NCBI RefSeq assembly: GCF_037892605.1
Contig: NZ_JBBKTU010000001.1
Span: 372,001-436,000 of the forward strand
DNA length: 64,000 bases
Direction of reading: 5' to 3'
From: Lacibacter sp. H407
GTDB lineage: Bacteria; Bacteroidota; Bacteroidia; Chitinophagales; Chitinophagaceae
In this document: positions 3,462 through 42,554 of the stretch, in pieces
How the letters are laid out: each line of letters opens with the position of its first letter
Numbering within the stretch: the first letter of the stretch is position 1
Notes under the pieces: model-generated
The model's database searches: none
What the model saw: the letters and a program-made list of their open reading frames with translations, nothing else
What the model was told of the DNA's origin: nothing
Program-made: the position numbers and the translations under genes

Positions 3462-3482
3462 TGTTAAAATGAATAGTGGTTG

Positions 3483-3490: not shown

Positions 3491-3493
3491 TTG

Positions 3494-3525: not shown

Positions 3526-3529
3526 TACT

Positions 3530-7755: not shown

Positions 7756-7761
7756 GCAAAA

Positions 7762-7789
7762 AAAGCACGCTGTTGGTACAACGTGCTTT
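7762..7789. terminator. Bidirectional terminator between recQ and the susD gene
   Basis: AAAGCACG (7762-7769) pairs with CGTGCTTT (7782-7789) around a 12-base loop. On the minus strand it is followed by a run of seven T residues, so it mainly ends the SusCD transcript; the plus-strand tail is CTTCTTTC. Confidence 0.75.
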
Positions 7790-7810
7790 CTTCTTTCAAT
7801 AGAAAAATAA

Positions 7811-25940: not shown

Positions 25941-25952
25941 GTAAACATCGTT

Positions 25953-26756: not shown

Positions 26757-26780
26757 GAAATTGTTTGCTCGTTAAAATTT

Positions 26781-26840
26781 ATAAGTGTGCATTCTGAGCG
26801 ATAAGTGTGCACTCGAATAATATTCTAACAAATACCTTTG
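26781..26840 (+). promoter_or_regulatory. Promoter of the polysaccharide operon with tandem operator repeats
   Basis: TACCTTTG (26833-26840) is an exact -7 box. Upstream, ATAAGTGTGCA occurs twice (26781-26791 and 26801-26811) with a 20-base period, so both copies face the same side of the helix and the second covers the -33 position. No good -33 box is seen, which suits an activator-dependent promoter. Confidence 0.5.
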
Positions 26841-26860
26841 CAGCGGTTTATACGATTGGC

Positions 26861-26878
26861 TTGTCAGACTTCTGACAA
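26861..26878 (+). promoter_or_regulatory. Perfect palindrome in the 5' leader of the polysaccharide operon
   Basis: TTGTCAGACTTCTGACAA is an 8-bp inverted repeat with a 2-base centre, 20 bases downstream of the -7 box and 35 bases before the first start codon. A two-base loop is poor for RNA, so a protein-binding operator is more likely. Confidence 0.45.
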
Positions 26879-26913
26879 ACAATTTAAACCTGAGAAAAAA
26901 TACAATATCTGTA

Positions 26914-27990
26914 ATGAGAATTGTTCATGTAGTAGAGCCATTTGCATCGGGCGTTGTAACCTTTGTAAAATCACTGGTAGAGCATCTGCCGGAAGATTAT
27001 CATATTGTTATACATGGCGAACGGCAGGAAGTAATGGAACGTGCTGAGGTAAAAAAACTTTTCCCACCCCACCAGGTAAAATTCATTCATTGGAAATCGG
27101 CCCAAAGAGGTCTTCATTTGGTAAAAGATACCAGAGCCTTATTTGAGCTGTACAATATTTTGAAGCGTTTCCGCACGGCTGATGTTGTACATCTCCATTC
27201 ATCGAAAAGTGGATTTATTGGAAGGCTGGCCTGCCGTTGGTTAAAGATCAGGAATGTGATTTATACACCAAATGGTGCGCCCTTTCTTATGCAGCAGGGG
27301 AAATTTAAACAATTATTATACAAACAACTTGAACTCATTGGTCATTCTTTTGGAGGCAAGGTTGTTTGTGTATCTGCATCAGAAGCTGATGCGTACAAAC
27401 AATTGGGTATCGATGCCTCATATATCAACAACGGCACTACCCTGCCGTTTGTGAGTACTAAACTTTTTACTTCAACTACTGATCAGAACAAATTCATTAT
27501 TGCTTTTTCAGGTCGCATACTGGCACAAAAAAATCCGAGACGTTTTAATGAGATCGCTCAGCAGTTTTTGAATTATTCAAATGTTGAATTTGTCTGGATC
27601 GGTGATGGTGAAGAAAAAGATCTACTTACCTCTCCTAATATTCGCATAACTGGATGGCTTACGGAAGATGAAGTGAAGAGCGAATTAGCAAAAGCTTCCC
27701 TGTATTTATCAACTGCAGATTACGAAGGACTGTCTTTTGGGGTTTTGGAAGCAATGGCGCTTGGCAAACCGTTGATCTTATCGAACTGTACAGGAAATAA
27801 AGACATTATCCGTTATGGTGTAAATGGCGATCTGTTTGAAACTACAGCACAGGCATGTACGCAGATCTTCTATTACATCAACAATCCATTTATGTTGGAT
27901 GCCATGGGCAGTTATTCGAAAGATCTATGCAAAACAGAGTTCAATGCAGCCAGCAGTGCAGGCAACTATCGTATTGCTTATACCTATTAA
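26914..27990 (+). CDS. Glycosyltransferase family 4, first gene of the polysaccharide operon
   Basis: This 358-residue GT-B enzyme has the glycine-poor first strand MRIVHVVEPFASGVVTFVKSL, the segment VVHLHSSKSGFIGRLA and the C-terminal nucleotide-sugar motif DYEGLSFGVLEAMALGKP with the E-x7-E spacing of GT4 retaining enzymes. It resembles enzymes that transfer a first or second sugar to a lipid carrier or chain. It is followed after 17 bases by a coiled-coil gene. The leader of 70 bases carries the palindrome described at 26861. Confidence 0.88.
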   Translation: MRIVHVVEPFASGVVTFVKSLVEHLPEDYHIVIHGERQEVMERAEVKKLFPPHQVKFIHWKSAQRGLHLVKDTRALFELYNILKRFRTADVVHLHSSKSGFIGRLACRWLKIRNVIYTPNGAPFLMQQGKFKQLLYKQLELIGHSFGGKVVCVSASEADAYKQLGIDASYINNGTTLPFVSTKLFTSTTDQNKFIIAFSGRILAQKNPRRFNEIAQQFLNYSNVEFVWIGDGEEKDLLTSPNIRITGWLTEDEVKSELAKASLYLSTADYEGLSFGVLEAMALGKPLILSNCTGNKDIIRYGVNGDLFETTAQACTQIFYYINNPFMLDAMGSYSKDLCKTEFNAASSAGNYRIAYTY

Positions 27991-28007
27991 ACCAGTAAGG
28001 CACCAAT

Positions 28008-28397
28008 ATGGATACGCAACAAAACAAACAATCAGATCAAGGTAAACTGATCGCATTACCCGGCAACCTCACCGAACTTCAATTAGAAGATCTGTTACGC
28101 CAGGTTTACAGTCATTTACTTTCGGAAAATGAATATAAACGTGAGCGGATCGAAGAGTTGATCAAACGTTTAAAAGATCTCGAAGCTAAACTTGCTGAGG
28201 AAGAGCACGAGAAAAAACAACTTCACAAAACATTAAGTGAAGAAAACAAAAAACAGGAAGGCACGAAACAACTGATCAATAAACTACTGGAAGATATCAG
28301 GAGATATCAGAATGATATTGAGTGGTATAAGCGGACATATGAGAAGAGGAGTTTTTTAGGCGTTTTAAGGCAGAAATTCTGGGATAAAAGAAAATAG
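28008..28397 (+). CDS. Coiled-coil protein with a C-terminal EWYxxTYExRS tail
   Basis: I do not recognise this 129-residue protein. Residues 35-100 are charged heptads that should form a coiled coil (RIEELIKRLKDLEAKLAEEE, then KKQLHKTLSEENKK). The C-terminus reads DIEWYKRTYEKRSFLGVLRQK. A comparable tail, aromatic EWY or NFY then x3-YE, closes the proteins at 34447-35511 and 37974-38849 in the same operon. It has no signal peptide or membrane segment. It could be a scaffold or chain-length ruler for the glycosyltransferases; this is a guess from context. Confidence 0.6.
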   Translation: MDTQQNKQSDQGKLIALPGNLTELQLEDLLRQVYSHLLSENEYKRERIEELIKRLKDLEAKLAEEEHEKKQLHKTLSEENKKQEGTKQLINKLLEDIRRYQNDIEWYKRTYEKRSFLGVLRQKFWDKRK

Positions 28398-28420
28398 TAC
28401 ACGTCTTCAATATATAAGAA

Positions 28421-28990
28421 ATGGAATTTAAAGTTGAAAAAACAGAAATCAGAGATCTTTTAATTATTACACCGGAAGTATTTCAGGATGACAGAGGTTT
28501 CTTTACAGAAACATACCGAAAGGACAAATTTGATGCTTTTGGTCTTGATGCAACATTCGTTCAGGACAATCACTCTCGCTCAATAAAAAATGTTGTAAGA
28601 GGATTGCATTTTCAATGGGATCCTCCAATGGGTAAACTAATGAGAGTAACACAGGGCGCAGCTTTTTTAGTTGCCGTTGATATTCGTATAGGATCCCCCA
28701 CATTTGGTAAATGGAAAGGAGTTGAGGCTTCAGTAGAAAATCGTAAGATGGTATACGCTCCAGCAGGTTTTGCAAGAGGATTTTGCGTAGTAAGTGACTT
28801 TGCAGAAATACAATATAAATGTACAGGTGTGTACACAAGTACAAAAGCAGAATCCGGGATTTTATGGAATGACCCTGCCATTGGTATTGAATGGCCAGTA
28901 TCGAATCCAATTCTTTCTAAAAAAGATGAAGAAGCACAAACACTGGAGCAATGGATAAATAACCCTGAGGCTAAAAATTTTATTTACTAA
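28421..28990 (+). CDS. rfbC: dTDP-4-dehydrorhamnose 3,5-epimerase family protein
   Basis: RmlC-type cupin epimerase of 189 residues acting on a nucleotide 4-keto-6-deoxy-hexose in the cytoplasm. Residues matching the catalytic set are present: H63 in RGLHFQ, K72 in GKLMRV, Tyr132 or Tyr138 and D169 in LSKKDEE. The block usually GFAHGF reads GFARGF, so the conserved His near 119 is Arg. With rmlA and rmlB absent from the locus, the precise product could be L-rhamnose or a related 6-deoxy sugar. It is followed by two SDR enzymes with gaps of 26 and 4 bases. Confidence 0.82.
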   Translation: MEFKVEKTEIRDLLIITPEVFQDDRGFFTETYRKDKFDAFGLDATFVQDNHSRSIKNVVRGLHFQWDPPMGKLMRVTQGAAFLVAVDIRIGSPTFGKWKGVEASVENRKMVYAPAGFARGFCVVSDFAEIQYKCTGVYTSTKAESGILWNDPAIGIEWPVSNPILSKKDEEAQTLEQWINNPEAKNFIY

Positions 28991-29016
28991 TATTCAAATG
29001 ATAATTATTTAGAAAA

Positions 29017-29970
29017 ATGAGAATACTAATTGCAGGTGGTGCGGGTTATGTAGGATCAGCTCTTATTCCCAAATTACTGGAGAGGGGGTATGTTGTAGAT
29101 GTTATTGACTTGCTTTGGTTCGGTAACAATTTACCTCCTGATGTGAGAGTTTTGCAAAAGGATATTTTTGAGTTGAACGAGAACGAATTGAAAGAGTACG
29201 ACCAAGTAATGTTTCTTGCTGGTCTTTCAAACGACCCGATGGCTGAATTTTCACCAGCCAAAAACTTTATTTACAATGCTTCTTCCCCTTCTTATCTAGC
29301 TTATATCGCCAAACGTGCCGGAGTAAAGAAATTTATTTATGCCAGCTCATGTTCTGTATATGGTTATACTGTGAATGAGCTGTATGATGAAACTGCACCT
29401 GCAGTTTCAAATTATCCATACGGAATTTCAAAATTGCAGGGCGAAGAGGGCGTGCTCGGTATGGCTGATAAAGATTTTTCAGTAATCTGTTTTCGTAAAG
29501 GCACCGTAAGCGGCTATAGCCCTAGAATGCGGCTCGACCTTATTGTAAATACAATGTTTAAGACAGCTTTGCAAACCGGCGAAATTATTGTAAACAACCC
29601 ATCCATCTGGCGCCCTATTCTTAGTATTGAAGATGCGGTAAGTGGTTACATCCGTGCTATTGAAAGCTCTGATGGTATTACAGGCGTATTTAATTTATCC
29701 AGCGGAAACTATACAGTTGGCGAAGTGGCAGACCTTGTAAAAGAGGCAATAGAAAAAAAATTGGGTAAACAAGTCAAATTAAACATTAAGAACATTAAAG
29801 ATTTCAGAAACTATAAAGTTTCCAATGAAAAAGCGGTAACAACATTAAGTTTTAAACCTAAACATGATGTAACTGCAATTTTAGACAACTTGATTGTGAA
29901 CATGGATAAGTTTACAGACTTTGACAATCCCAACTACTACAATATTCACATATTCAAACAGTTAAACTAA
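29017..29970 (+). CDS. NAD-dependent epimerase/dehydratase (extended SDR)
   Basis: This 317-residue enzyme has the Rossmann glycine motif GGAGYVGSAL near residues 7-16, the catalytic Ser/Tyr/Lys set in SSCSVYG and YPYGISK, and a C-terminal substrate domain with WRPILSIEDAVSGYIRAIE. It does not show the typical RmlB signature, and looks closer to the GalE/WcaG-like nucleotide-sugar epimerases or reductases. Placed between RmlC-like and RmlD-like genes it probably changes the configuration of the same sugar nucleotide. Exact reaction unknown. Confidence 0.8.
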   Translation: MRILIAGGAGYVGSALIPKLLERGYVVDVIDLLWFGNNLPPDVRVLQKDIFELNENELKEYDQVMFLAGLSNDPMAEFSPAKNFIYNASSPSYLAYIAKRAGVKKFIYASSCSVYGYTVNELYDETAPAVSNYPYGISKLQGEEGVLGMADKDFSVICFRKGTVSGYSPRMRLDLIVNTMFKTALQTGEIIVNNPSIWRPILSIEDAVSGYIRAIESSDGITGVFNLSSGNYTVGEVADLVKEAIEKKLGKQVKLNIKNIKDFRNYKVSNEKAVTTLSFKPKHDVTAILDNLIVNMDKFTDFDNPNYYNIHIFKQLN

Positions 29971-29974
29971 AATA

Positions 29975-30835
29975 ATGAAAATAGCCGTCATCGGTTCAAA
30001 CGGGCAATTAGGTAGTGATCTAATTCAAGTACTTTCTAAACAAGATCATGAGGTTATTGGTTTGACACATACTGAAATTGAGATTTCCAATATTGATAGT
30101 GTGAATAACACATTGAAGTCAATTAAACCTGATTTCATTATAAATACAGCAGCTTACCATGTTGTTCCTGAAGCGGAAAAATTCCCTCATGAAGCATTTA
30201 GGGTTAATGGATCGGGCGTACTTAATCTTGCAAAAATTTGTGCTAGCGAAAACATCAAGCTTGTACATTATAGTACAGACTATGTATTTGATGGACTAAA
30301 AAAAACGGCCTATACAGAAATTGACACCCCCAATCCCTTAAATGTTTATGCTAATACCAAATTAGCTGGAGAACATTTTGCACGAAACTATTGCGACTCA
30401 GCATACGTAGTTCGTGTATCTGGAATTTATGGTTCAGTTCCATGCAGAGCTAAAGGAGGGAATTTCATCACGACAATGATTAAGCTAGCGAAAGAAAAAC
30501 CTGAAGTAAGAGTTGTAAGTGATGAAATATTAACACCTACTTCAACTCTTGAAATTGCTAAAAATACCGCTGAACTTATTAAAACAGATGCATTTGGACT
30601 ATATCACATGACTTGTGAAGGAGAGGTTTCCTGGTATGAGTTTGCAAGAGCAATTTGGGACACATTGGATTTAAAGACCCCTTTATTACCAGCCAGTGTT
30701 AGGGATTTTCCGTTAGTTGTTAAAAGACCTTTCTATTCCGTCTTAGAGAACAACAATCTTAATCAATTAAGCATAAATAAGATGCCTACATGGAAACAGG
30801 CTCTGACTTCCTTTTTAACAAAGGAATTCAAATAA
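29975..30835 (+). CDS. rfbD: dTDP-4-dehydrorhamnose reductase family protein
   Basis: RmlD-type SDR of 286 residues that reduces the 4-keto group of the epimerised sugar nucleotide. The NAD(P) motif is GSNGQLGSDL at residues 7-16, STDYVFDG contains the catalytic Thr/Ser region, and the YxxxK pair is in NVYANTKLAGE. The C-terminal half has YHMTCEGEVSWYEFARAIWD, as in RmlD. It follows the SDR gene by four bases, so the three sugar genes form one unit. The final sugar is probably L-rhamnose or a close relative, in line with the RgpF-type genes downstream. Confidence 0.85.
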   Translation: MKIAVIGSNGQLGSDLIQVLSKQDHEVIGLTHTEIEISNIDSVNNTLKSIKPDFIINTAAYHVVPEAEKFPHEAFRVNGSGVLNLAKICASENIKLVHYSTDYVFDGLKKTAYTEIDTPNPLNVYANTKLAGEHFARNYCDSAYVVRVSGIYGSVPCRAKGGNFITTMIKLAKEKPEVRVVSDEILTPTSTLEIAKNTAELIKTDAFGLYHMTCEGEVSWYEFARAIWDTLDLKTPLLPASVRDFPLVVKRPFYSVLENNNLNQLSINKMPTWKQALTSFLTKEFK

Positions 30836-30871
30836 GATTCCCTTTAATAGCAGATTTTAATTGACTTGAAA

Positions 30872-31642
30872 ATGTCGAATAACGAAATGGAATATACTGG
30901 AGAAAGATATGTACCAGAGTTATCTGCTGCAAAAATTAGCTACGAGCATTGGCATCGATACTTTTTTGCCGGCCGTTTTTGCAACCAAAAAAAGGTATTG
31001 GATATCGCAAGTGGCGAAGGTTTTGGATCAGCCTTCTTAGCAAAATCAGCCACTTCAGTAATCGGCGTTGACGTGTCTGAAGAAGCGATTAATCATGCAA
31101 ACGAAAAGTACAGGATTCAGAATTTACAATTCCTGAAATCCAACGCTACACAACTGCCTTTTAATGACAACTTCTTTGATGTTATCGTCTCGTTTGAAAC
31201 ACTTGAGCATATTAACGAAGTGGATCAACAGTTATTTCTTAGCGAAGTTTCAAGAACTATTTGTCAGGATGGCTTATTGATTATCTCAACTCCAAACAAA
31301 AAAGTCTATTCAGATGAAGCTAATTACTCAAACCCCTATCATTTAGCTGAATTTTATAGAAAAGATTTTGAACTATTTCTAAGGCAGTTCTTTCCTAATG
31401 TTTCATTTTTTGAACAACAAATAATTGGTGGCAGTGAAATATCTAATGGAGATGATACGATATATACTATAGACCATCTTCATATGGGTGCAAATGAATA
31501 TAAGCCAGGGAGAGCTGATTCTAAAAAAGAAAAAGAATATCTCATTGCAGTCTGTTCTAAAGAAACGCTTCCTTCTCTCCAGGGTAGCATTTTGTTAGAT
31601 GATGATAATAGCCTTATAAATCAATATCAAAAACCACACTAA
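30872..31642 (+). CDS. SAM-dependent methyltransferase, class I
   Basis: This 256-residue Rossmann-type methyltransferase has the opening EYTGERYVPE seen in enzymes of polysaccharide loci, SAM motif I VLDIASGEGFGS, motif II GVDVSEEAI and the post-motif FFDVIVSFETLEHI. I use ATG 30872; a TTG six bases earlier is an alternative. It probably methylates a sugar of the chain or its end, as chain-terminating methyltransferases do in ABC-exporter O-antigen systems. The sequence is clearly AT-rich compared with genes outside the locus. Confidence 0.82.
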   Translation: MSNNEMEYTGERYVPELSAAKISYEHWHRYFFAGRFCNQKKVLDIASGEGFGSAFLAKSATSVIGVDVSEEAINHANEKYRIQNLQFLKSNATQLPFNDNFFDVIVSFETLEHINEVDQQLFLSEVSRTICQDGLLIISTPNKKVYSDEANYSNPYHLAEFYRKDFELFLRQFFPNVSFFEQQIIGGSEISNGDDTIYTIDHLHMGANEYKPGRADSKKEKEYLIAVCSKETLPSLQGSILLDDDNSLINQYQKPH

Positions 31643-31666
31643 TTTCTTATTTAAGAAACATTACCC

Positions 31667-34441
31667 ATGTCGATTAATTTTAAGCCGGAAATATTAAAAG
31701 CAACAGAGAGCAAAGCAGATTTTGATATTAAATTTCGAAATGAATCGAATTTAACAGCCCAATTATGTGTCTTTTCATCCTATAGTTTTACTGGAGAAAT
31801 TGATGAATACATTTATTACTATTTGCAGCAATTAAAAAAAGCAGGGTTTTCAATTGCATTTGTATCTACAAGTAAATTATCAAATAAGTGTATTAACATT
31901 CTTAGCGAATACGCCTTCCTAATAATTGAAAGAAAAAACACGTGTCCTGATTTTGGATCTTGGAAAATTGCATTGGAAATTCTAAACTTCCCACAGAATT
32001 TTGATGCAATTCTGCTGGCAAATGACAGTGTCTTTGGGCCTTTGTATGAGTTGCCTCCAATCATTAAATCCATGAAAAAGCGATTTGACATTTGGGGAAT
32101 GACAGCAAGCCTTGAAATCGAATACCATTTACAAAGCTATTTTCTATATTTTTCAAAAAAGGTTATTCAAAGCAGTCATTGGAAAAGCTTCTGGCAAAAT
32201 ATCGATACCACACTCACCAAAACACAGGTTATAGGCCTTTATGAAGTGGGGCTCTCGAAGCATTTCTTGTCGGCAAATTTCAGCTTAGGTTCATACACTG
32301 ATGTTGAAATATTAAGCAAAAGCCATCGTAATGGAGAAAAATACTTGAATCCAACTTTAGGCTTTTGGCGTTTGTTAATTGAACGCTTTGAATTCCCGTT
32401 TCTTAAGAGAGAAGTACTCATTAAAGAAGATATTGACAAAATTTACTGGCAAAGAGGATTATATGTTAACACAGGAAATTGGAAGAGTATAATCAAAAAA
32501 AATACAAACTACCCAGTAGAAAAAATTGATTCCTTTTTGAAAGAGTATTACGAAGTAAAAAAAGAAAATAATACAGACTATATCCTTCAAAAACGCAAGT
32601 TTTTGTTTCTTACACATAACATTGAAATAGGAGGGGCGCAGCGAGTGCTGCTGAACTTTCTAAAATGGCTGAAAACTAATACTGACATCCCTTTCGAAAT
32701 TATAGTTTGCAGAGAAGGCCGACATGATTTACTGACAGAATTTTCTACTTTTGGAAATTTGACATTTTTCTACTCACTTTCAAACATTGAAAAAAATAGT
32801 ATTAAAAACAGGCTTATCAGTGAAAATATTTCTCTGATTTTTTCAAATACTATGGTTAATGGGGAAGCAATGAAGTTTTTGTCATTTCTTGAAGTCCCCA
32901 AAATCATTTTTGTTCATGAGCTTTCATATGTGCTCAATCAGTTCTCCTCAATAACAGATAATCTTGATTGGTTTCGTACTGAGGTAGAACACTTTATTTG
33001 CTGTGCCGAATCTGTGCAAAAGAACTTAATTAATTTCTTACAACTAGAACCTGCAAAGACAAGTGTTATTAACGAGTTCATTGATATACAAGAAAATGAT
33101 TTACAGTCTGACAACACAGAAAATTTACGAAAAGAATTAAACATACCGAATGATGCCTTCGTAATAGGCATGTCCGGGACTTTTGAATGGCGGAAATCAG
33201 CAGACTTGTTGCCAATTATTGGAATGAGCATCTGTAATAAAGCTGAAAATATTCATATAGTTTGGCTAGGTGCCGATAAAACCTGCCAACTATACAATGA
33301 CATTTCTTTAGAAATAAACAAAACCAACTTTAAAAGTAAAATCCATTTGATCGAAAAACAACACGACTCTCAACCTTATTTTAAGTTGTTCAATGTTTTT
33401 TTAATGATCTCGAGGGAGGACCCTTTCCCACTTGTAAACCTTGAAAGTGGTGCTATGGGAACACCCGTTATCTGTTTTGAAAATACAGGTGGTTCTGAGG
33501 AATATGTGAAGCTTGGCACTGGTCACTCCGTTCCATATCTAGATATTCCTTCGTTGGTATCTAAAGTAATGGACTATTACCAAAATCCACATTTGTTGAA
33601 AAATGAAAGATCAAAAATTTCCTCAATCGTAAAACAAAACTTTTCAACTGAAATTCTGGCTCCAAAAGTTTTGAACGTTATTTCAAAAGAGTATGATATT
33701 ACTGAGCTTGCACTTATAAAAGAACCATCTGTAACAATTCTTACACATATCTTTTTCGATCATACCTGGGAGGAAATAAAAACAAGTATCAGGCATTTCG
33801 ACAGAGGTAATAATCATTTTTTATTTAGCATCAGTGAGGTCTGTATAAATAAGGATGCGATTATTTCTGACATAAAAAGAACTTTTAGAAACTCATACGT
33901 TATTGTTACCTCAAACGTTGGCCGTGACATTGGAAGTAAGTTTGCACTCATCGAATTATACTTAATGCTTGGCATTAATAGTAGTTACTTGATCTTTCTG
34001 CATGACAAGCAGAGCCTCCATACATTGGTTGGTGATTCTTGGAAGAAAAATCTTTTTAAAATATTAGACCCCAACAACTATAGAAGTATTATATCCCTTT
34101 TTGAAACCGAAAACGCAGGCATCATAGGTGCAAAAGAGCATTTCATTAATGAATATAATCCGCAAACAGAAACGTTTAGACATAATAATGATCTTTCAAA
34201 GGAGTACCTGAAAAATTACAAAATTCAAATTAATGACTATGAATATATTTCAGGTACGATTTATTGGTTAAAATCTTCGATAATAAAAGATTTCTTTACC
34301 ACGCATAATCCAATTAACCTTCGACATGAACTCGAATCAGGCAACGTTCTTGATGAGAAGGTTAGCACGAAAGTTCATACGTGGGAACGTATGTTTTGTT
34401 GGATTACAAAAAATTCAGGACACACTATAAAAGGCATTTAA
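31667..34441 (+). CDS. RgpF-type protein split around a family 4 glycosyltransferase
   Basis: This 924-residue protein has three parts. Residues 1-290 match the N-half of rhamnan synthesis F proteins (TCPDFGSWKIALEIL, ILLANDSVFGPLYELP, IWGMTASLEIEYHLQSYFLYF). Residues 305-685 form a GT-B enzyme (FLFLTHNIEIGGAQRVLLNF, SREDPFPLVNLESGAMGTP). Residues 690-924 match the C-half of RgpF (VTILTHIFFD, NVGRDIGSKFALIE, FLHDKQSLHT, ISGTIYWLKSS, HTWERMFCW). The paralogue at 36425-37969 joins the two RgpF halves directly. Both end in IKGI. RgpF of Streptococcus mutans adds side-chain linkage to a rhamnan; here transfer of two different sugars by one protein is likely. Confidence 0.82.
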   Translation: MSINFKPEILKATESKADFDIKFRNESNLTAQLCVFSSYSFTGEIDEYIYYYLQQLKKAGFSIAFVSTSKLSNKCINILSEYAFLIIERKNTCPDFGSWKIALEILNFPQNFDAILLANDSVFGPLYELPPIIKSMKKRFDIWGMTASLEIEYHLQSYFLYFSKKVIQSSHWKSFWQNIDTTLTKTQVIGLYEVGLSKHFLSANFSLGSYTDVEILSKSHRNGEKYLNPTLGFWRLLIERFEFPFLKREVLIKEDIDKIYWQRGLYVNTGNWKSIIKKNTNYPVEKIDSFLKEYYEVKKENNTDYILQKRKFLFLTHNIEIGGAQRVLLNFLKWLKTNTDIPFEIIVCREGRHDLLTEFSTFGNLTFFYSLSNIEKNSIKNRLISENISLIFSNTMVNGEAMKFLSFLEVPKIIFVHELSYVLNQFSSITDNLDWFRTEVEHFICCAESVQKNLINFLQLEPAKTSVINEFIDIQENDLQSDNTENLRKELNIPNDAFVIGMSGTFEWRKSADLLPIIGMSICNKAENIHIVWLGADKTCQLYNDISLEINKTNFKSKIHLIEKQHDSQPYFKLFNVFLMISREDPFPLVNLESGAMGTPVICFENTGGSEEYVKLGTGHSVPYLDIPSLVSKVMDYYQNPHLLKNERSKISSIVKQNFSTEILAPKVLNVISKEYDITELALIKEPSVTILTHIFFDHTWEEIKTSIRHFDRGNNHFLFSISEVCINKDAIISDIKRTFRNSYVIVTSNVGRDIGSKFALIELYLMLGINSSYLIFLHDKQSLHTLVGDSWKKNLFKILDPNNYRSIISLFETENAGIIGAKEHFINEYNPQTETFRHNNDLSKEYLKNYKIQINDYEYISGTIYWLKSSIIKDFFTTHNPINLRHELESGNVLDEKVSTKVHTWERMFCWITKNSGHTIKGI

Positions 34442-34446
34442 TTAAT

Positions 34447-35511
34447 ATGGTATCAAACTACCTTTTTTTTATTGAGCAACCGATTGAATTTCTTTTATCC
34501 GAACATAAAAAGGAAAAAAAAGAATATATATTCCCAATTACAAAGGACCTCCTTTCCGATAAAGCATTCTTGTTTAAAAAGTTATACAACTCAGAAACAA
34601 GATTTTGTTTCTGTATAACTAAAGACATTTTAAATCCCAGCGTTATAACCAAAGAATACCTAGTTAGCTTTCTGGTGCTTTTTGCGTTTTTACCAAATTA
34701 TGCACGATATAGGCAAAACTATTTATTCTTTTTTGATGAAGAAGTGTCTTCAGAAAGAGAGTTTCGGCGGCAAAAAGAAGAATTGCTGAATACGCTCCGC
34801 TTGCAGGGCATCAAAAACATTATTACAACGGATCTTGATAAAAAGAAACGAGTAGTAAATGCTGATAAAAAAAGCTTATGTATTACTAATGAAGCATTTA
34901 GCCAATATATTACATCATCGGATAAAGGAATTGTTTCGCAAGACTTAATAAAGAAAATCATATCGCCTGACAGCATAGAAAAAAAATGGATAATTCATAT
35001 TGAATCATCATCTGACTATACCACTAAGAATCAACTAGCCGATCACTTTTCTTCTTTGGTTTCACAGATAAATCCTGTTGTATTTAAGTTATTATCCTTG
35101 TATGAAAACGCTGATGATCTTAAAGCCAAATTCGAATTTGAAAAAAGCGCATTACAAATCAAACTAGATAATACCAATGACAACTTGAAAGTTTTACGTA
35201 ACAATTCTTTGTGGTATGTTTATGAATATGACAAGGTTATTCGTGAAATCGATCATCTAAGAAGGCATGTAGAAAATAATGGGAGTACTCCAGCTTTTGT
35301 GCATGTAGAAGCGCCAATAATTGCGAATGATTTCAACCAAAACTCCTTTGAATTAAAAACCAGGCTTGATGAGGTAGTAAAAAACAGAGATACGATTCTT
35401 GAGTGGTATATGAAAGAATACGAGGTACTACCAGTTTGGTATAAAAGAGTTGGTCATTTAATAAAAGCTGCAACCGGGAAAAGAACATTCAAATCTCTAT
35501 TTACTAAGTAA
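34447..35511 (+). CDS. RgpF-partner protein A, unknown function
   Basis: This 354-residue protein starts at ATG 34447, five bases after the RgpF stop; a frame from 34381 would overlap that gene. It has an N-terminal alpha/beta half (YLFFIEQPIEFLLSEH, RFCFCITKDILNPS, YLFFFDEEVSSE), a coiled coil near 220-270 and a tail ILEWYMKEYEVLPVWYKR followed by GHLIKAATGKRTFKSLF. The tail and overall plan recur in 37974-38849. The N-half recalls, in much weakened form, GH99-like (WbsX) domains found in Bacteroidota glycan loci; this is inference. No signal peptide or membrane span is present. Confidence 0.65.
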   Translation: MVSNYLFFIEQPIEFLLSEHKKEKKEYIFPITKDLLSDKAFLFKKLYNSETRFCFCITKDILNPSVITKEYLVSFLVLFAFLPNYARYRQNYLFFFDEEVSSEREFRRQKEELLNTLRLQGIKNIITTDLDKKKRVVNADKKSLCITNEAFSQYITSSDKGIVSQDLIKKIISPDSIEKKWIIHIESSSDYTTKNQLADHFSSLVSQINPVVFKLLSLYENADDLKAKFEFEKSALQIKLDNTNDNLKVLRNNSLWYVYEYDKVIREIDHLRRHVENNGSTPAFVHVEAPIIANDFNQNSFELKTRLDEVVKNRDTILEWYMKEYEVLPVWYKRVGHLIKAATGKRTFKSLFTK

Positions 35512-35530
35512 TTATTTATTGGAAATACTC

Positions 35531-36340
35531 ATGACCAGAGAAGAAAAACTTTTGTATAAGATTGACAAAACCTTGCTTGGTGTTGAAATTGGCCCAAGCC
35601 ATAACCCTATTGCTCCAAAAAAATCTGGATTCAACGTTCATATCATTGATCATATGAACAAAGACGAACTTATTAAAAAATACAAAGATCACAATGTAGA
35701 TCTTTCGAATATTGAGGAAGTAGATTTTGTATGGAAAGGGGAATCATATTCTGAGTTAACCAGAAGAAGTAAATCCTACTCTTGGATACTGGCATCGCAT
35801 GTAATTGAGCATACGCCAGATATTATATCATTCCTAAACGAATGTGATGCGATTTTAAAAGAAAACGGGGTCTTGTCCCTTGCCATTCCCGATGTTCGAT
35901 ATTGCTTCGACTATTTTCGGCCTATTACCGGCGTTTCTAAAGTAATAGATGCCTATTTGCACAAAAACAAAATCCACACTCCCGGTACAGCAGCTGAATA
36001 TTTTCTGAATTTTGCAAAAAGAGATGGGAATATTTCTTGGTTTGAGGGATATAGAGGAGAATTAGCACTCGAATTCTCAATAGAGGATGCCTACAATCAG
36101 ATGAATGCAGTGATAAGAGATAAAATATACCTTGATTTACATTCATGGTGTTTTACTCCAACATCATTCAGGCTTTTAATACAAGACTTGAATTCGCTTG
36201 GTCTAATTAATCTTAAAGAGGTGTCCTTCTTTCCCTCGGAAGGATGTGAGTTTTTTATCAAACTTAGCAGAGAAGGAACGGGATATTTAACAAATCGGAT
36301 AGACGCACTTAAGACAATAAAAGCAGAATTATCAATTTAG
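35531..36340 (+). CDS. Methyltransferase-domain protein
   Basis: This 269-residue protein shows a class I methyltransferase layout: GVEIGPSHNPIAPKK takes the place of the SAM motif I, then HIIDHM as acidic loop, SWILASHVIEHTPD as the motif after strand 4, and LKENGVLSLAIPD as motif III. The glycine motif is unusual (EIGPSHNP) but common in proteins of glycan loci. I use ATG 35531; a TTG 12 bases earlier is possible. It sits between the two RgpF/partner pairs, so it probably methylates or caps the same chain. Confidence 0.75.
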   Translation: MTREEKLLYKIDKTLLGVEIGPSHNPIAPKKSGFNVHIIDHMNKDELIKKYKDHNVDLSNIEEVDFVWKGESYSELTRRSKSYSWILASHVIEHTPDIISFLNECDAILKENGVLSLAIPDVRYCFDYFRPITGVSKVIDAYLHKNKIHTPGTAAEYFLNFAKRDGNISWFEGYRGELALEFSIEDAYNQMNAVIRDKIYLDLHSWCFTPTSFRLLIQDLNSLGLINLKEVSFFPSEGCEFFIKLSREGTGYLTNRIDALKTIKAELSI

Positions 36341-36424
36341 ATAACTACAACTATTGTACATTATAAAAACTTCATACTTTGAAATGCGAAATAAAATTTC
36401 TGCATTTGACATAAAATACATTTA

Positions 36425-37969
36425 ATGCAAAGTCATTCTAAAATATGCTTATTTGTACACTACAATCGTCGAAGTGAAATATCTGACTATGTATTAATTT
36501 TCTTAAAGTCACTTTCTACATTACACTATAGAATACTGCTTTTGTCAAATTCCGAGATTTCTGAGCACAGTAGAACAAGGGTTGAAAAGGAAATACCTAA
36601 CTGCCGTTTTTTTTTGCGGGAAAATAAAGGCGCTGATTTTGGTGCATGGAGCTGGGCATTTGCAAACAATCTTATACCAAAAGATACAGACTATCTACTA
36701 TTAGCTAATGACAGTGTCATTGGCCCTTTTTTCAATTTAGCCTACCACTTTGAATCCATGTACAAGGACGATCAATCTGATTTTTGGGGATTAACTGACA
36801 ACTTTCAAGGGGCATGGCATATACAATCGTATTTTTTACTGTTGAATAGGCAGGTTTTACAATCGCATGCCTTCCAAAAAGTATTCTCTCAGAATTTTAA
36901 TAATAAAACAAAGCTTGAAATTATTAAGGATGGTGAAGTAAGGCTAAGTCAGGAATTGATTGCTGCAGGGTTTAAAGGGAGGGCTTTGTTTCCTTATGAA
37001 GATCTCGATTCTGAAAAAGACAGTGTGTTTAGTCAGAATTCAACTCATTTCTATTGGGATACGCTAATAACCAAATTTAAATACCCATTTCTAAAACGTG
37101 ACCTGCTGCTACAAAATCCTGAAAACATTCGCAATCTAAACTCAGTATTTCACGTAGTTCGGAAAGTTTCCGATTTCAATACAGAATTGATAAAATCAGT
37201 TATAGTAAATAGTTTAGAGCCCACATCGCCAGTCACAGTACCGGATAAAAAAATCAGTATATTATGTCATCTTTATTATCCTCATAGTATCTATTACTTC
37301 CTTTCAAAGCTCTCTATCTTAAAATCGTTTAAAGCCGATTTTTATTTTAACCTTTCAGATGGATTAATGTATGACGAAGATTTTATAGATGTCCTTACCC
37401 GATCTTTCTCAGGATCAGTAATTTTACACACTCCAAACAAAGGACGGGACATCGGGGGGAAGTTTGCTCTGATTGATGCAATGTTAAAGTCCGAAAACAA
37501 AACAGATTATACTTTAATCATTCATGATAAGCTTAGCCCGCACACACCAACAGGAAAAACCTGGCGAGATAAACTTTTTAAAGTGATTGAGCCGGAAAGA
37601 ATTGAGATTGTCCTATCAGAGTTTGAAGCAAATAAAAAAACAGGCATTATAGGCACTAAAGATTTTGTAAAAACTGAATTCAACCCCGATAAAAAAGAAT
37701 TTGATTGTACAAGTAATGATATCCTCTTACAAAAGCTGAAAGACTATAAGCTTCACCCAAAAGACTTCAACTTCATTGCAGGCACCATTTTTTGGATACG
37801 AAGTTCAGTTTTAGAATCATTCTTTACCGAACACAAGCCTCTTGCGATCAGAAAAGATTTTGAAACTGGCAATGCACTTGACTTTACCAAAGGAACATTA
37901 ATACATGCATGGGAACGATTATTTACGATGATCTCGACATCACAAGGCTATAAAATTAAAGGCATTTAA
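36425..37969 (+). CDS. Rhamnan synthesis F (RgpF) family protein
   Basis: This 514-residue protein is a complete RgpF-type sequence. The N-half has ENKGADFGAWSWAFANN, LLLANDSVIGPFFNL and FWGLTDNFQGAWHIQSYF; the C-half has ISILCHLYYP, NKGRDIGGKFALIDAM, LIIHDKLSPHTPTGKTWR, FIAGTIFWIRSS and HAWERLFTMI. It ends in IKGI like the 924-residue paralogue. RgpF acts in formation of rhamnose-glucose polysaccharide in streptococci; here it should transfer a sugar to the rhamnose-containing chain in the cytoplasm. The gap of 84 bases upstream is AT-rich without an exact -7 box. The partner gene follows after four bases. Confidence 0.85.
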   Translation: MQSHSKICLFVHYNRRSEISDYVLIFLKSLSTLHYRILLLSNSEISEHSRTRVEKEIPNCRFFLRENKGADFGAWSWAFANNLIPKDTDYLLLANDSVIGPFFNLAYHFESMYKDDQSDFWGLTDNFQGAWHIQSYFLLLNRQVLQSHAFQKVFSQNFNNKTKLEIIKDGEVRLSQELIAAGFKGRALFPYEDLDSEKDSVFSQNSTHFYWDTLITKFKYPFLKRDLLLQNPENIRNLNSVFHVVRKVSDFNTELIKSVIVNSLEPTSPVTVPDKKISILCHLYYPHSIYYFLSKLSILKSFKADFYFNLSDGLMYDEDFIDVLTRSFSGSVILHTPNKGRDIGGKFALIDAMLKSENKTDYTLIIHDKLSPHTPTGKTWRDKLFKVIEPERIEIVLSEFEANKKTGIIGTKDFVKTEFNPDKKEFDCTSNDILLQKLKDYKLHPKDFNFIAGTIFWIRSSVLESFFTEHKPLAIRKDFETGNALDFTKGTLIHAWERLFTMISTSQGYKIKGI

Positions 37970-37973
37970 CGTC

Positions 37974-38849
37974 ATGTATCTACATTCATACTTTCTATAC
38001 GACATATCAGATGTTAAATGTTCGCTCCATTTAAATCTGCCAAATGAGTATCATTTTTGCTTTAAAATAACTGATCAAAATTTATCCTCACTACCCTTTT
38101 TTTACACGCATCTTTTGCATTCATCAATAAAGCCGGGGTTCTGTTTTCATATTGACATTAAAGAAAAAAAAGTGGAAGAGATCAATCAGTTTATTCAGGA
38201 ATATCTCATTCCTTCTTTTTTTCACTACCAATATAAATACGATAGCTTTTCCTCTCCCTTTATTTTAGCTAGTGCTTCCACAAGTTCAAATGCTCCTTTT
38301 CTTTCCATATTAAATTGCGCAGGCAGAGAACAGGGCTTTCCCAATATTTCCCCTCTTACTGTAAAAAAATATCATCTCATTAGTACTCTGAACGCAGATG
38401 ATAAAACTGTAGTTGAGCATTATGCGAATACACTAATGAAAATAAAAGATTTTAATGAACCGATTTTTTTTCAAATCAATTCTATAGATGAAATATCTCC
38501 TTTTCTCTTAAAATTGAATAGAGCTGAAATTATATTGGCAGCTAAACACCATCAGTTAATGCAATTTTTTATAGATTACACCAAACTTTATGAAGACAGA
38601 AGGCAATTGTCATTTCAAAATGGTGTTTTAGCCCAGTCATTGGAGTCACTAAGCAAATACGGTTCAGATATTAATGAACCTGGCTCTTTTTATAAAAAGA
38701 AAATTGCAGACATTGTTAACTTTTATAAAAATGAATATGAAATTCTTCCTCTTTGGTATAAGCGCCTGGGACATATCCTAAAAGTTATTACAGGCAAACG
38801 GACCTTTCGATCACTCTATGATGACAATTCAAAAAAATACAAGCTGTGA
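37974..38849 (+). CDS. RgpF-partner protein B, paralogue of protein A
   Basis: This 291-residue protein of unknown function ends with IVNFYKNEYEILPLWYKR, then GHILKVITGKRTFRSLY, nearly the same tail as partner A. The N-half has comparable blocks (YHFCFKITDQNLSS, FCFHIDIKEKKVEEINQFI, EYLIPSFFHYQYKY, SPFILAS) that look like eroded GH99-like WbsX segments. The middle differs strongly from A. Both partners directly follow an RgpF gene with gaps of four or five bases, so they are probably translated with it and act with it. The stop codon overlaps the GTG start of the next gene. Very AT-rich (13 G+C in 60 at 38461-38520). Confidence 0.65.
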   Translation: MYLHSYFLYDISDVKCSLHLNLPNEYHFCFKITDQNLSSLPFFYTHLLHSSIKPGFCFHIDIKEKKVEEINQFIQEYLIPSFFHYQYKYDSFSSPFILASASTSSNAPFLSILNCAGREQGFPNISPLTVKKYHLISTLNADDKTVVEHYANTLMKIKDFNEPIFFQINSIDEISPFLLKLNRAEIILAAKHHQLMQFFIDYTKLYEDRRQLSFQNGVLAQSLESLSKYGSDINEPGSFYKKKIADIVNFYKNEYEILPLWYKRLGHILKVITGKRTFRSLYDDNSKKYKL

Positions 38850-41005
38850 AGTACTGGCTACTAACAACAGAATATCCTCCATTCTTTGGAGGAGGTATCA
38901 GCACCTACTGTTATCATACAGCAAAAATGCTGGAGCAACAGGCACATACAGTTTCTGTTTTTGTAAACGATGCAACTGCTCTGAATACTACCATCGTTAA
39001 CGATGGTAGTATCAGGATTATTCGTTTCAACGCTACAGCTACAAAGTCATCTGAATTTCTAGGACATGTTACAAATATCAGTTACGAATTTGCCCACATT
39101 TTAAAAGAGTTTATTGAGCAAGAAGGTAAACCAGACATAATAGAATCCCAGGAATACCTTGGCATTGCGTACTATCTTTTACAATTTAAACATCTTGGTT
39201 ACGCATGGTGCAAAGATGTGCCGGTAATTATTACGATGCATTCTCCATCTTTCCTTTACATGGAGTATAATCACGTTTCTGAATTCAGATACCCAAATTA
39301 CTGGATCTGTGAAATGGAAAGGTTTTGTTTGCAAGCAGCTGATCATGTTATTTCACCAAGCCAATTTATGATTGATGAGCTTAGCAAAAGGTTCACCCTG
39401 AATCATACAAATATTTTTGTTATTCCAAACCCATACACATTTCAGGAACAACAATTTACTATTGATGGCGGGAATGAAATTATTTTTTTTGGCAAACTCA
39501 CTGTTCAAAAAGGAATACTGCAATTACTATACTACTTTAAGCAACTTTGGGATAACGGTTTTCAAAGACCACTGATCTTAATAGGTGGACAGGATATTGT
39601 ATACCATCCTGAAGGCTTGTCAATGGGTGCAATCGTTCGAAAAAAGTACAGATCTTATATTAACTCAGGCTTACTTAAACTTGAAGACAGGATTGAACCA
39701 TCAGCAGTTGAAAAACGTCTGGTAAAAGCAGAAGTTGTCATTGTCCCAAGCAATAACGACAACTTGCCCTATGTTACTGCAGAAATGATGAGTTTAGGAA
39801 AAATTGTCCTGGTATCAGAACAGGGTGGGCACCGTGAAGTAGTTGAAAACGCAATAAGTGGTTTTATTTTCGACCATGAAAAAGCAGGCTCATTTCAACA
39901 GCAATTAACTACTATCCTTGGACTTGATAAGCAAAAGAAACTGGAGATTGGTAGCAGAGCACAGAAAAGAATCAGCGAATATTTCGGCTATCAAAAAGTT
40001 TATGAAAATAAAAAACAAATCATTGATCGTGTTATTCTCCAAAGGAGTTATAAAAAAAAGTTTCCATATATTCGGATTAAACAGGATATTTCAAGAATTG
40101 ACAATATTCCAAAGGGCAATAAAGAACTATCGGTCGTAGTCCCTTTTTATAATATGGGACGTTTCCTGGATGAAACAATTCGTTCGATCAAAAACAGCTC
40201 TTGTAAAGTCCATGAAATTATAATTGTTAACGATGGCAGTACGGAAGAAGAAAGCATTCAAAAACTAAACACTTACAGATCTGAAGCTGGGGTAGTTGTC
40301 ATTGACACAGTTAACACAGGTGTTGGCGCAGCCAGAAATATAGGAATTAAAGCCGCTAGTGGTGAATATATTGCTGTGCTTGATGCAGATGACATTGTTG
40401 AACCCGACTACTACGCAACTGCAGCAAGAATATTGTCAACTTATGAGAATGTACATTTTGTTGGTTGCTGGACCCGCTACTTTGAAAACTCAGATAAAAT
40501 ATGGCCAACATTTTCACCAGAGCCGCCATTAATTTTGTACCACAATCTTATCAATTCCAGTGCACTAGTTTTTAAAAAAGAGAGTATTATAGCAGCAGGT
40601 TTATATGATACAAAAATGACTTTTGCAGGCCTTGAAGATTACGCATCAGTTGTCTCCATGCTTGCTTCAGGTTATGGTGGAGTAGTTATACCTGAACCAC
40701 TATTCCGATATAGGGTTCGTAACAATTCAATGATTCGGGATGTTTCCAAGGACAAGAAAAATCTGCTTGTACAGTACATCAGCAATAAGTTTAGTTCTTT
40801 TTACAGTAATTATGGCTACGAGTTGGTTAATCTCTATAATACAAATGGTTCTGGTGTTCAACACGATAACCCCTCGTTAGACTATCATCTTTCTGACAAG
40901 ATTCCTTTCTTAGGAAAGCATTCGCAAAAAGTTATAAAACTCATAAAGCGAAACAGACATACAAAAAACATTGCTTATCAATTATACCGGTTTCTAAAAA
41001 AATAA
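38846..41005 (+). CDS. Bifunctional glycosyltransferase, GT4-GT2 fusion
   Basis: This 719-residue protein joins two enzymes. Residues 1-400 form a GT-B family 4 domain (LLTTEYPPFFGGGISTYCYH, IIFFGKLTVQKGI, VPSNNDNLPYVTAEMMSLGK). Residues about 428-640 form a GT-A family 2 domain (LSVVVPFYNMGRFLDETIRS, IIVNDGSTEEE, LDADDIVEPDYY with DADD near 513-516, TFAGLEDYASV). A short C-terminal tail follows. It starts with GTG overlapping the previous stop (GTGA), so translation is coupled. Such fusions often build a repeating disaccharide by adding two sugars in turn; that is inference. Confidence 0.86.
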   Translation: MKYWLLTTEYPPFFGGGISTYCYHTAKMLEQQAHTVSVFVNDATALNTTIVNDGSIRIIRFNATATKSSEFLGHVTNISYEFAHILKEFIEQEGKPDIIESQEYLGIAYYLLQFKHLGYAWCKDVPVIITMHSPSFLYMEYNHVSEFRYPNYWICEMERFCLQAADHVISPSQFMIDELSKRFTLNHTNIFVIPNPYTFQEQQFTIDGGNEIIFFGKLTVQKGILQLLYYFKQLWDNGFQRPLILIGGQDIVYHPEGLSMGAIVRKKYRSYINSGLLKLEDRIEPSAVEKRLVKAEVVIVPSNNDNLPYVTAEMMSLGKIVLVSEQGGHREVVENAISGFIFDHEKAGSFQQQLTTILGLDKQKKLEIGSRAQKRISEYFGYQKVYENKKQIIDRVILQRSYKKKFPYIRIKQDISRIDNIPKGNKELSVVVPFYNMGRFLDETIRSIKNSSCKVHEIIIVNDGSTEEESIQKLNTYRSEAGVVVIDTVNTGVGAARNIGIKAASGEYIAVLDADDIVEPDYYATAARILSTYENVHFVGCWTRYFENSDKIWPTFSPEPPLILYHNLINSSALVFKKESIIAAGLYDTKMTFAGLEDYASVVSMLASGYGGVVIPEPLFRYRVRNNSMIRDVSKDKKNLLVQYISNKFSSFYSNYGYELVNLYNTNGSGVQHDNPSLDYHLSDKIPFLGKHSQKVIKLIKRNRHTKNIAYQLYRFLKK

Positions 41006-41007
41006 TT

Positions 41008-41805
41008 ATGCTTCTAAAAATTGTAAAAGATTGGGTTAGCAGTAACAATAAACTTGAAAGAATTTGGCTTCTTGCTAAGATTGAGTTTAAATTGAGGTAC
41101 TATGAAAACAAACTGGGTTTGCTTTGGGCACTACTTAAACCCATCATGGACATTTGTATTTACTATGTTGTTTTTAAAATTGTTATGAAATCCGATGTGC
41201 CTGCATTTGCTTCATTTCTTTTTATTGGTCTCATAATCTGGAACTTTTTTGTAGAATCTACATCTGGAACCATACAAATTCTTAATACAAAAAAATACTT
41301 GTACGAATACAGTAACATGAATAAGCTGGAGATCTATATTTCTACCTTAATGAGTAATGCAATAGGTTTTTTCTTCAATTTCCTAATGTTTTTACTTTTC
41401 TATAATTTTCTTGAAAAAGATTCTGTTGGCATAAGCATTCAGAACATTTGGATAGTTGTAATCTTTCTCAACCTTTTCATTCTTTCACTGGGAGTATCAC
41501 TTATACTCTCTAATATTTACATTATCGCAAAAGATATTTCGCAAATCTGGCTGGTATTTACAAGCTTTCTTTTTTTCTTATCGCCTATTTTTTACAGCTT
41601 AAAAGTATTTAAAGAGGCGTTGCCTTCATTTGATTACGGCAACCCTGTTGCCGGGCTCATTATCAATGCTAGAAAAATAATGATGGAAAAAAGTTCGCCT
41701 GATTTCACTCTACTTGTCTGGGATTTGGCCTATGCATTGTTTCTGTTTCTTTTAGGATTAGTAGTATTAAACAAACTTGGTTCAAAAGCTGCTGAAAAAC
41801 TTTAA
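41008..41805 (+). CDS. wzm: ABC-2 type polysaccharide export permease (Wzm-like)
   Basis: This 265-residue integral membrane protein has about six hydrophobic spans and the ABC-2 opening motif LAKIEFKLRYYENKLGLLWA followed by LLKPIMDICIYYVVFKIV. It is the channel subunit of an O-antigen or teichoic-acid type exporter that moves a lipid-linked glycan across the inner membrane. It lies two bases after the fusion glycosyltransferase and ten before the ATPase. The homologue in the streptococcal rhamnan system is RgpC, which suits the two RgpF-type genes upstream. Confidence 0.9.
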   Translation: MLLKIVKDWVSSNNKLERIWLLAKIEFKLRYYENKLGLLWALLKPIMDICIYYVVFKIVMKSDVPAFASFLFIGLIIWNFFVESTSGTIQILNTKKYLYEYSNMNKLEIYISTLMSNAIGFFFNFLMFLLFYNFLEKDSVGISIQNIWIVVIFLNLFILSLGVSLILSNIYIIAKDISQIWLVFTSFLFFLSPIFYSLKVFKEALPSFDYGNPVAGLIINARKIMMEKSSPDFTLLVWDLAYALFLFLLGLVVLNKLGSKAAEKL

Positions 41806-41815
41806 ATAACAAACT

Positions 41816-42550
41816 ATGGAAAAAGTGATCGCATTGAGCGCAAAAAATATCAGTAAGACATTTGAAATATCAGAGGATAGTCACAATACCGTAAAACACA
41901 GATTGTTTAACTTATTCAATCCTCCCAGAAGAAAAAAAATACCTGCGTTAAAAATGACCTCGTTCGAGATCAATAAAGGCGAATGTGTGGGATTGTTAGG
42001 ACGAAACGGATGTGGCAAATCAACACTCGTAAAATTATTAGCAGGCGTATATCCTACCGATACAGGCTATGTAAAAATAAACGGCAGCACCATGCTCATG
42101 AATCTAGGTGTAGGTATGAGCCATGAACTGACTGCAAGGGAAAATATTTATGTGTCGGGTTCTGTATTAGGAATGAAGATCAAAGAGATTGATGCCATCT
42201 TTGATACGATCGTTGATTTTGCCGAGCTGCGTGAGTTCATTGATACAAAGATCAAGTATTTCTCATCTGGTATGGTTGCCCGTCTTGGATTCTCTATTGC
42301 AGTAAATGCTGGTGCAGACATTATGTTCCTAGATGAAATTTTTGCGGTAGGCGATATGAAGTTCCAGGAAAAAGCGATCAAGGTTTTTGAAAGTTCCTGG
42401 ATACAAGGAAAAACAGTTGTTCTTGTTAGTCACTCAATGGATACAATCCAGAAATACTGCAGTCGTGCCGGTTTTATGAAAAACGGCGAAATGGTCTACT
42501 TCGGCAATACTGAAAAAGCAATCGAACTCTACATGGCCGATAATCAATAA
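41816..42550 (+). CDS. wzt: Polysaccharide export ATPase (Wzt-like) without glycan-binding domain
   Basis: This 244-residue ATPase pairs with the preceding permease. Walker A is GRNGCGKS at 62-69, the signature YFSSGMVARLGFSIAV and Walker B IMFLDEIFAVGD are typical of the O-antigen/teichoic-acid export group. The protein stops soon after the ATPase domain, so the C-terminal carbohydrate-binding domain that reads chain-end caps in E. coli O8/O9a Wzt is absent. Chain-length control must use another mechanism, as in RgpD or TagH-short systems. Its stop codon is only four bases from that of the opposing ligase gene. Confidence 0.9.
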   Translation: MEKVIALSAKNISKTFEISEDSHNTVKHRLFNLFNPPRRKKIPALKMTSFEINKGECVGLLGRNGCGKSTLVKLLAGVYPTDTGYVKINGSTMLMNLGVGMSHELTARENIYVSGSVLGMKIKEIDAIFDTIVDFAELREFIDTKIKYFSSGMVARLGFSIAVNAGADIMFLDEIFAVGDMKFQEKAIKVFESSWIQGKTVVLVSHSMDTIQKYCSRAGFMKNGEMVYFGNTEKAIELYMADNQ

Positions 42551-42554
42551 TCGG

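Follow-up and report, generated by a model that had tools for sequence, protein, structure and literature searches.

What is the protein that follows each RgpF-type protein in a polysaccharide locus of Lacibacter sp. H407, and why is it there? The window, by which we mean the whole stretch of 64,000 nucleotides analysed here (contig NZ_JBBKTU010000001.1, positions 372,001 to 436,000, from a genome of 4.87 Mb), contains two RgpF-family genes, RgpF1 and RgpF2, and each of them is directly followed by a second gene, here called partner 1 and partner 2. On balance we favour the reading that the partner is a non-catalytic, WbsX-derived adaptor, which would bind the RgpF module and dock it, through a shared C-terminal tail (type A), to the GT4-GT2/Wzm/Wzt machinery. 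This reading draws on the strict pairing of the two genes, their co-divergence, a profile similarity of the partner to WbsX, the loss of the WbsX motifs, the occurrence of the tail on unrelated carriers and a GT-A-like model of RgpF. The two pairs and the gene between them are as follows.

31667-34441, + strand: RgpF1, with N-half, inserted GT4 domain and C-half (C-half about 33707-34441); PF05045 in two stretches with PF00534/PF13439 between them, BLAST similarity to RgpF2 over both halves
34447-35511, + strand: partner 1, with degenerate WbsX-like N-domain, helical spacer and type-A tail, by BLAST and family profile comparison
35389-35508, + strand: type-A tail of partner 1, by tail hidden Markov model (HMM)
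35519-36340, + strand: methyltransferase-like gene; PF08241 slightly above its cut-off, PF13489 slightly below
36425-37969, + strand: RgpF2, with N-half and C-half (C-half about 37235-37969), predicted tandem GT-A-like; PF05045 over residues 1-503, structure model, Foldseek
37974-38849, + strand: partner 2, with degenerate WbsX-like N-domain, helical spacer and type-A tail, by profile comparison and a low-confidence model
38709-38825, + strand: type-A tail of partner 2, tail HMM E 4.3e-26

The original prediction, made from the letters of this stretch, had described this four-gene layout with correct coordinates; the products have 924, 354, 514 and 291 aa (RgpF1, partner 1, RgpF2, partner 2), and the partners follow their RgpF genes after 5 bp (pair 1) and 4 bp (pair 2), as it had said. 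Its assignment of both genes to the RgpF family was also borne out (PF05045, E 2e-47 and 6.8e-45, 162.4 and 154.1 bits against a cut-off of 25, both halves covered), both RgpF proteins do end in IKGI, the tail sequences had been quoted exactly, and the gene between the copies is methyltransferase-like (273 aa). No other RgpF match was found in the genome.

To see how strict the pairing is, a 40-column model of the type-A tail was applied to 84,980 species in a pattern scan and to 294 Chitinophagaceae genomes in a search. The scan, which demands an exact [EN]YExLP[LVS]WY and which remote forms outside Bacteroidota could escape, returned 18 loci, and the HMM, built from 8 tails, matched 21 of the 294 genomes, 14 of them outside the 7 genomes that had supplied the model. 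The shared tail exceeds chance. Duplicates were dropped together with weak matches (E about 0.008-0.023), which are tails of another type (type B), and 33 distinct type-A carriers in 31 loci were left: 21 partners, 11 glycosyltransferases and one RgpF N-half protein. The proposed tabulation of partner positions showed that every one of the 21 partners, all of them without an enzyme domain, lies directly behind an RgpF C-half, with a spacing of -11 to +32 bp depending on the start chosen. In the reverse direction, a model of the RgpF C-half subfamily was run on the 294 genomes. It detected 14 strong genes, spread over 13 genomes and each with a partner, and one weak 41-residue match in a fourteenth genome; 13 of the 14 strong genes are rows of the model itself, so the worth of this search is that no unpartnered gene appeared. 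By the Pfam model RgpF is rare overall, found in 7 of the 298 genomes sampled from the order and in 10 of 395 from the phylum. RgpF genes without a partner in wide flanks (L032, L033 and L034; L numbers denote loci) lie outside the partner-linked branch of the tree, and the partner HMM found no partner in the short stretches L053-L060. One partner (L047 7220-8138, the same as L087) is split into two overlapping open reading frames (ORFs) in a metagenome-assembled genome, by frameshift or assembly error, and was excluded from the partner alignments and tree. The idea that a fixed partner is a Bacteroidota-specific addition is therefore upheld in part: no exception to the pairing was met in either direction and all 18 scan loci carry Bacteroidota taxon names, Sabulibacter being confirmed as one of them, but the tail also ends 11 glycosyltransferases without an RgpF C-half, and the N-domain of the partner resembles WbsX, a known RgpF neighbour.

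Behind partner 2 lie the genes to whose products the RgpF module would be docked, and a ligase-like gene on the other strand.

38846-41005, + strand: GT4-GT2 glycosyltransferase, by Pfam
41008-41805, + strand: Wzm-type ATP-binding cassette (ABC) permease, PF01061
41816-42550, + strand: Wzt-type ATPase of 244 aa, ABC/P-loop matches only
42555-43844, - strand: O-antigen ligase-like protein, PF04932 E 4e-19

A GT4-GT2 gene starts at most 170 bp past the stop codon of 17 of the 21 partners and of 6 of the 11 glycosyltransferase carriers (the GT4-GT2 proteins after the carriers of L094 and L097 are shorter, 528 and 555 aa), and a Wzm or Wzt homologue lies in the stretch of 29 of the 31 loci. The two without one are L095 and L099 (a 3.7-kb contig); L036 and L093 were counted by a partial Wzm at the stretch end, and in L052 the homologue is on the opposite strand.

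One account of such pairing would be that the two genes are neighbours only, travelling together and determining one sugar linkage without contact, while the tail anchors each protein independently. Such loci do swap cassettes, and co-inheritance by itself yields correlated trees. However, neither gene was met alone (21/21 and 14/14), the genes lie very close together or overlap, and their intact relatives form single fused proteins, and we give this account only a slim chance. Distances between partner N-domains correlated with those between RgpF C-halves (r 0.64, p 0.0002; 0.60-0.64 as partial correlations controlling for one export-side gene), whereas the correlations of either protein with Wzt, Wzm or GT4-GT2 were 0.08-0.34 and those within the export side 0.37-0.63. 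This test used 15 of 16 pairs (window pair 2 and those of 15 loci, L036 being lost because its export genes lie at or beyond the stretch end) and omitted window pair 1, L047, L052, L093 and L099. The distances fall into two linked sets with weak correlation between them, so that divergence is shared by partner and RgpF C-half and runs separately from that of the export genes; the pair behaves as a cassette that is exchanged whole. The partner tree reproduces four groups seen in the RgpF tree: L050/L093/L099 (96/94), L046/L035/L036/L100 (92/92), L037/L091 (100/100) and L042/L043/L048 (93/97). A group of window copy 2, L041 and L038 was not recovered in the partner tree, yet was not rejected either (p 0.37). 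The partner tree has many long branches, and its median end branch is about threefold longer than that of the RgpF C-half (1.62 vs 0.55).

The proposed alignment of the two window partners gave E 1e-14, mostly from the tail, with a second stretch in the N-domain at E 0.005; across partners the mean identity is 66% in the tail and 15% in the N-domain. Pfam, NCBIfam and PHROGs offered no credible family for the partners (20 of 21 in the Pfam scan, the split one of L047 being excluded). A profile of 20 N-domains nevertheless matched a set of 30 WbsX sequences (score 42.9, E 1.4e-5, probability 80%), as it did a first set of 9 (E 9.5e-6, 83%). The controls were low: 10 profiles of other families reached at most 1.3%, which rules out the N-domain as a repeat of RgpF, GT4, GT2 or ABC parts, 295 column shuffles scored at most 17.9 and 0.6% (another 5 of the 300 gave no output), and the reversed profile scored 14.5 and 0.2%. 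When the N-domain was compared with 18 ORF clusters from the loci retrieved, the top rank went to the partners' own cluster, followed by intact WbsX (E 3.5e-6, 88%) and then by a diverged WbsX cluster (E 0.0035, 9%); none of the remaining 15 exceeded 0.7%. The two WbsX clusters, of 18 and 10 members, match the WbsX HMM in every member, some of these being rows of it. A WbsX HMM built without partners matched the partner of L043 (L. luteus) in the same region at E 0.003. By profile and controls, the N-domain is homologous to the central part of the WbsX domain, and the WbsX match rules out a unique origin of the partner. In a low-confidence AlphaFold2 (AF2) model of the partner, four strand-helix alternations are followed by a long helix and by shorter helices across the tail; to our reading, the alternation would fit the middle of a GH99-like barrel. 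For the GH99 relation of WbsX we rely on annotations.

Has the partner kept the chemistry of WbsX? The motifs NEWxEG, ANENW, GFTEW and WDN occur in none of 20 partners, as against 17-21 of 30 WbsX sequences, some of which are truncated or diverged, and a fifth (GKP-V/L) in 1 of 20 against 17 of 30; the motifs were our choice, guided by the alignment. Since the first four are missing from all 20 partners, we call the partner WbsX-like or WbsX-derived and not a WbsX. The near-invariant residues of the N-domain are Y87 and G121 only (P0002 numbering). The partner might still be a working, very diverged glycosyltransferase that adds a second sugar, its tail merely a membrane anchor. WbsX is annotated as a glycosyltransferase family, the partners sit in glycan loci, the pair resembles the two-enzyme WbsX-RgpF fusion, and, in one report, wbsX mutations accompany altered O antigen and phage resistance in Burkholderia gladioli (PMC13391952). 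Against this, the loss of motifs, the two near-invariant residues and the low mean identity of the N-domain would be unusual for an active enzyme, so that we regard a second enzyme as unlikely.

WbsX as a neighbour or fusion partner of RgpF is already known. WbsX (PF14307, GH99-like) and the RgpF C-half occur in a single ORF only in L034 and L052 among the loci scanned; fused or side by side, the two were also seen on plasmids of many Proteobacteria, where 110 of 72,556 plasmid records matched the fusion. Among the 25 of these matches listed, several being strains of one species, all 25 have one place spanning both domains over 73-78% of the fusion, and 20 are annotated as GH99-like, two of which show separate adjacent GH99-like and rhamnan-synthesis-F genes. 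These systems share with the window an RgpF C-half with a WbsX-type companion. In contrast, the window partner is a separate gene that is shortened, lacks the signature motifs and has gained a spacer and a tail, and its RgpF belongs to a separate clade: the 20 partner-linked C-halves split from five fused RgpF C-halves at 100/100, in a tree made without the C-half of L098 (the N-half protein of L038 was excluded from one alignment, A6). L052 holds an intact WbsX-RgpF fusion and a split pair with a WbsX-like partner in one locus (2763-5537 and 6468-8084). A literature search met no paper that combines any two of RgpF, WbsX, glycoside hydrolase family 99-like, pseudoenzyme and Chitinophagaceae; among the papers listed for WbsX, most concern filaria antigens with a similar name. 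Protein Data Bank (PDB) sequence searches with WbsX and with RgpF2 gave no useful match.

The tail itself is not specific to RgpF, as 11 of its 33 carriers are glycosyltransferases without RgpF. Each of these (L039, L040, L049, L095, L024, L045, L051, L092, L094, L097 and L044, the last being the same as L021) has a glycosyltransferase domain above the Pfam cut-off, and the C-half HMM found no RgpF C-half in the 2.5 kb upstream of any of them. In L038 the RgpF halves are on two proteins, and the N-half protein bears two type-A tails of its own, so both halves are tailed. Two tandem C-terminal type-A tails were seen in three carriers (L024 7448-9859, L095 8451-11594 and L038 1972-3822). The tail is basic, with a hydrophobic moment of 0.47-0.74 in 7 tails. 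It suggests a docking device because it is conserved, is present on unrelated catalysts and is supplied by a second protein to every RgpF C-half met in this branch; its contact could be the membrane, GT4-GT2 or Wzm/Wzt. Among the literature matches listed, seen by title and abstract opening, no title was about such tails.

A C-terminal tail behind a helical spacer also recalls WbdD, and the partner might act like it, as a coiled-coil protein that measures chain length or ends the chain and brings the polymerase to the membrane by its C-terminus. In WbdD/WbdA of Klebsiella and E. coli (PMC11231755), a helical protein recruits the polymerase by its C-terminal membrane-near region in ABC-exported O antigens; the parts of the partner follow one another likewise (N-domain, helical spacer, C-terminal tail), and its locus, too, is one for an ABC-exported glycan. 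Pfam scans, however, found neither methyltransferase nor kinase in the partner, and the spacer is short, about 40-60 residues in our reading of the model. Domain scans found no C-terminal carbohydrate-binding domain in the 244-aa Wzt-type ATPase, so no terminal cap seems to be read, and a WbdD-like role appears quite improbable.

What would the adaptor hold in place? RgpF2 matches PF05045 end to end, and in RgpF1 a GT4 domain (Pfam matches over residues 321-646) is inserted between the RgpF halves. The AF2 model of RgpF2 is good (predicted local distance difference test, pLDDT, 86; predicted template modelling score 0.83), and its best PDB matches by Foldseek were LARGE1, heparosan synthase 2, GlyE and K4 chondroitin polymerase, with the TDP-rhamnose enzyme RmlT lower; all of these are taken to be GT-A enzymes, of which three have a pair of such domains. 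RgpF2 is thus predicted to consist of two GT-A-like domains. To what we take to be tandem GT-A polymerases (LARGE1, K4 chondroitin polymerase and heparosan synthase 2) the model is similar at E 1.7e-9 to 1.9e-8 with probability 1.00, but whole-length TM-scores are only 0.21-0.30, so the domain arrangement of RgpF2 is probably different. The two RgpF halves are weakly similar to each other (E 5e-4, 32%), about as the N-half is to a GT2 profile (E 4.5e-4, 33%). The C-half, which is frequently alone, retains invariant G-D-G-K, D-K-S and E-R positions, and on this ground we take it to be an active GT-A-like module. Streptococcal RgpF is among the closest known systems in that PF05045 matches the two window proteins, along the whole of RgpF2; the window differs from it by the GT4 inserted in RgpF1, by relatives that mostly have the C-half only, by the constant tailed partner and by an ABC-exported O-antigen-like locus with a ligase. 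In 2019 the precise role of the streptococcal backbone enzymes, the RgpF type included, was called unknown (PMC6802508). No literature on Lacibacter polysaccharide was found among the matches listed.

The adaptor reading can then be put together as one unit of an RgpF GT-A-like glycosyltransferase module and a constant non-catalytic companion. The companion would be a worn-down WbsX (GH99-like) domain stripped of its signature motifs, with a helical spacer and the conserved basic tail behind it; the WbsX part seems to have retained its seat on RgpF while its chemistry was lost, which presumes that the two proteins physically bind. Through the tail, the RgpF module would most probably be docked to the machinery for assembly and export at the inner membrane (GT4-GT2, Wzm, Wzt); several stand-alone glycosyltransferases of the same locus type carry this tail directly.

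Several observations weigh against this reading. The WbsX relation is faint: 20 partners gave no PF14307 match even at E 10, the WbsX HMM detects just 1 of the 21, the profile match spans only 62-86 columns, and the partner model is poor (pLDDT 62) with no Foldseek match. The gene order is inverted, WbsX preceding the RgpF C-half in the L034 and L052 fusions and the partner following RgpF here. As for docking, the amphipathicity of the tail is modest (2 to 15% of permutations are as high in the 7 tails), and GT4-GT2 is not directly next after 5 of the 11 glycosyltransferase carriers and 4 of the 21 partners. Finally, a weak correlation with the export genes was seen as well for partner and RgpF C-half (p < 0.04 in 5 of 6 comparisons), which means that the co-divergence comes in part from a common history of the locus.

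A broader version, to which we give somewhat less than an even chance, is that interchangeable C-terminal docking tails (types A and B) assemble modular polysaccharide factories: tailed catalysts would plug in directly, and the tailless RgpF GT-A module would get a tailed pseudoenzyme from its former WbsX fusion partner. If the adaptor reading is right, one could tell from sequence which glycosyltransferases work in the same ABC-exported polysaccharide factory; there would also be an example of a catalytic fusion partner turned adaptor and a likely origin for unannotated partners, and the question of how enzymes are retained at the membrane would narrow to 30-40 residues.

Did the two pairs arise by duplication of a two-gene unit, as the original prediction had suggested? 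For RgpF a local duplication is unlikely: a clade of the two window C-halves was rejected (approximately unbiased, AU, test, p 0.027), and the RgpF2 C-half is sister to that of L047, another organism (100/97). A recent local duplication was rejected on these grounds for the RgpF C-half only. The tree gives RgpF1 no firm place, and the partners are too diverged to decide (AU p 0.16).

The remaining features lie upstream of the pairs.

28008-28397, + strand: 129-aa protein ending in a type-B tail, no Pfam match
28421-28990, + strand: RmlC-like dTDP-4-dehydrorhamnose 3,5-epimerase, PF00908 E 2e-63
29975-30835, + strand: RmlD-like dTDP-rhamnose reductase, PF04321 E 1.5e-87

With its RmlC-/RmlD-like, methyltransferase-like, GT4-GT2, Wzm, Wzt and O-antigen-ligase-like genes, the locus is, by gene content, of the O-antigen type. 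Its sugar may be rhamnose, for which the RmlC-/RmlD-like neighbours are only suggestive. The 129-aa protein appears largely helical to us. Tails of this type (type B, DIEWYKRTYExRSLLGxxKxK) terminate a protein of 108-157 aa close to the beginning of the locus as well as several larger proteins from its middle, and are also found inside large proteins (seen in the window at 28008-28397 and in L023, L092, L040, L094, L047 and L093). Of the 31 type-A loci, 20 have a type-B tail, many of the stretches stopping short of the locus start. In the phylum sample of 247 genomes, the genome of the window was the single match. Similar locus borders were seen in five genomes of the same genus (window 24399-43844; L019, L021, L022 and L024), with a GT4 and the type-B protein at one end and Wzm/Wzt at the other and with different genes in the interior, which reads as serotype-like exchange. 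Outside the locus, the window, L021, L022 and L024 share a gene that we presume to be comM-like.

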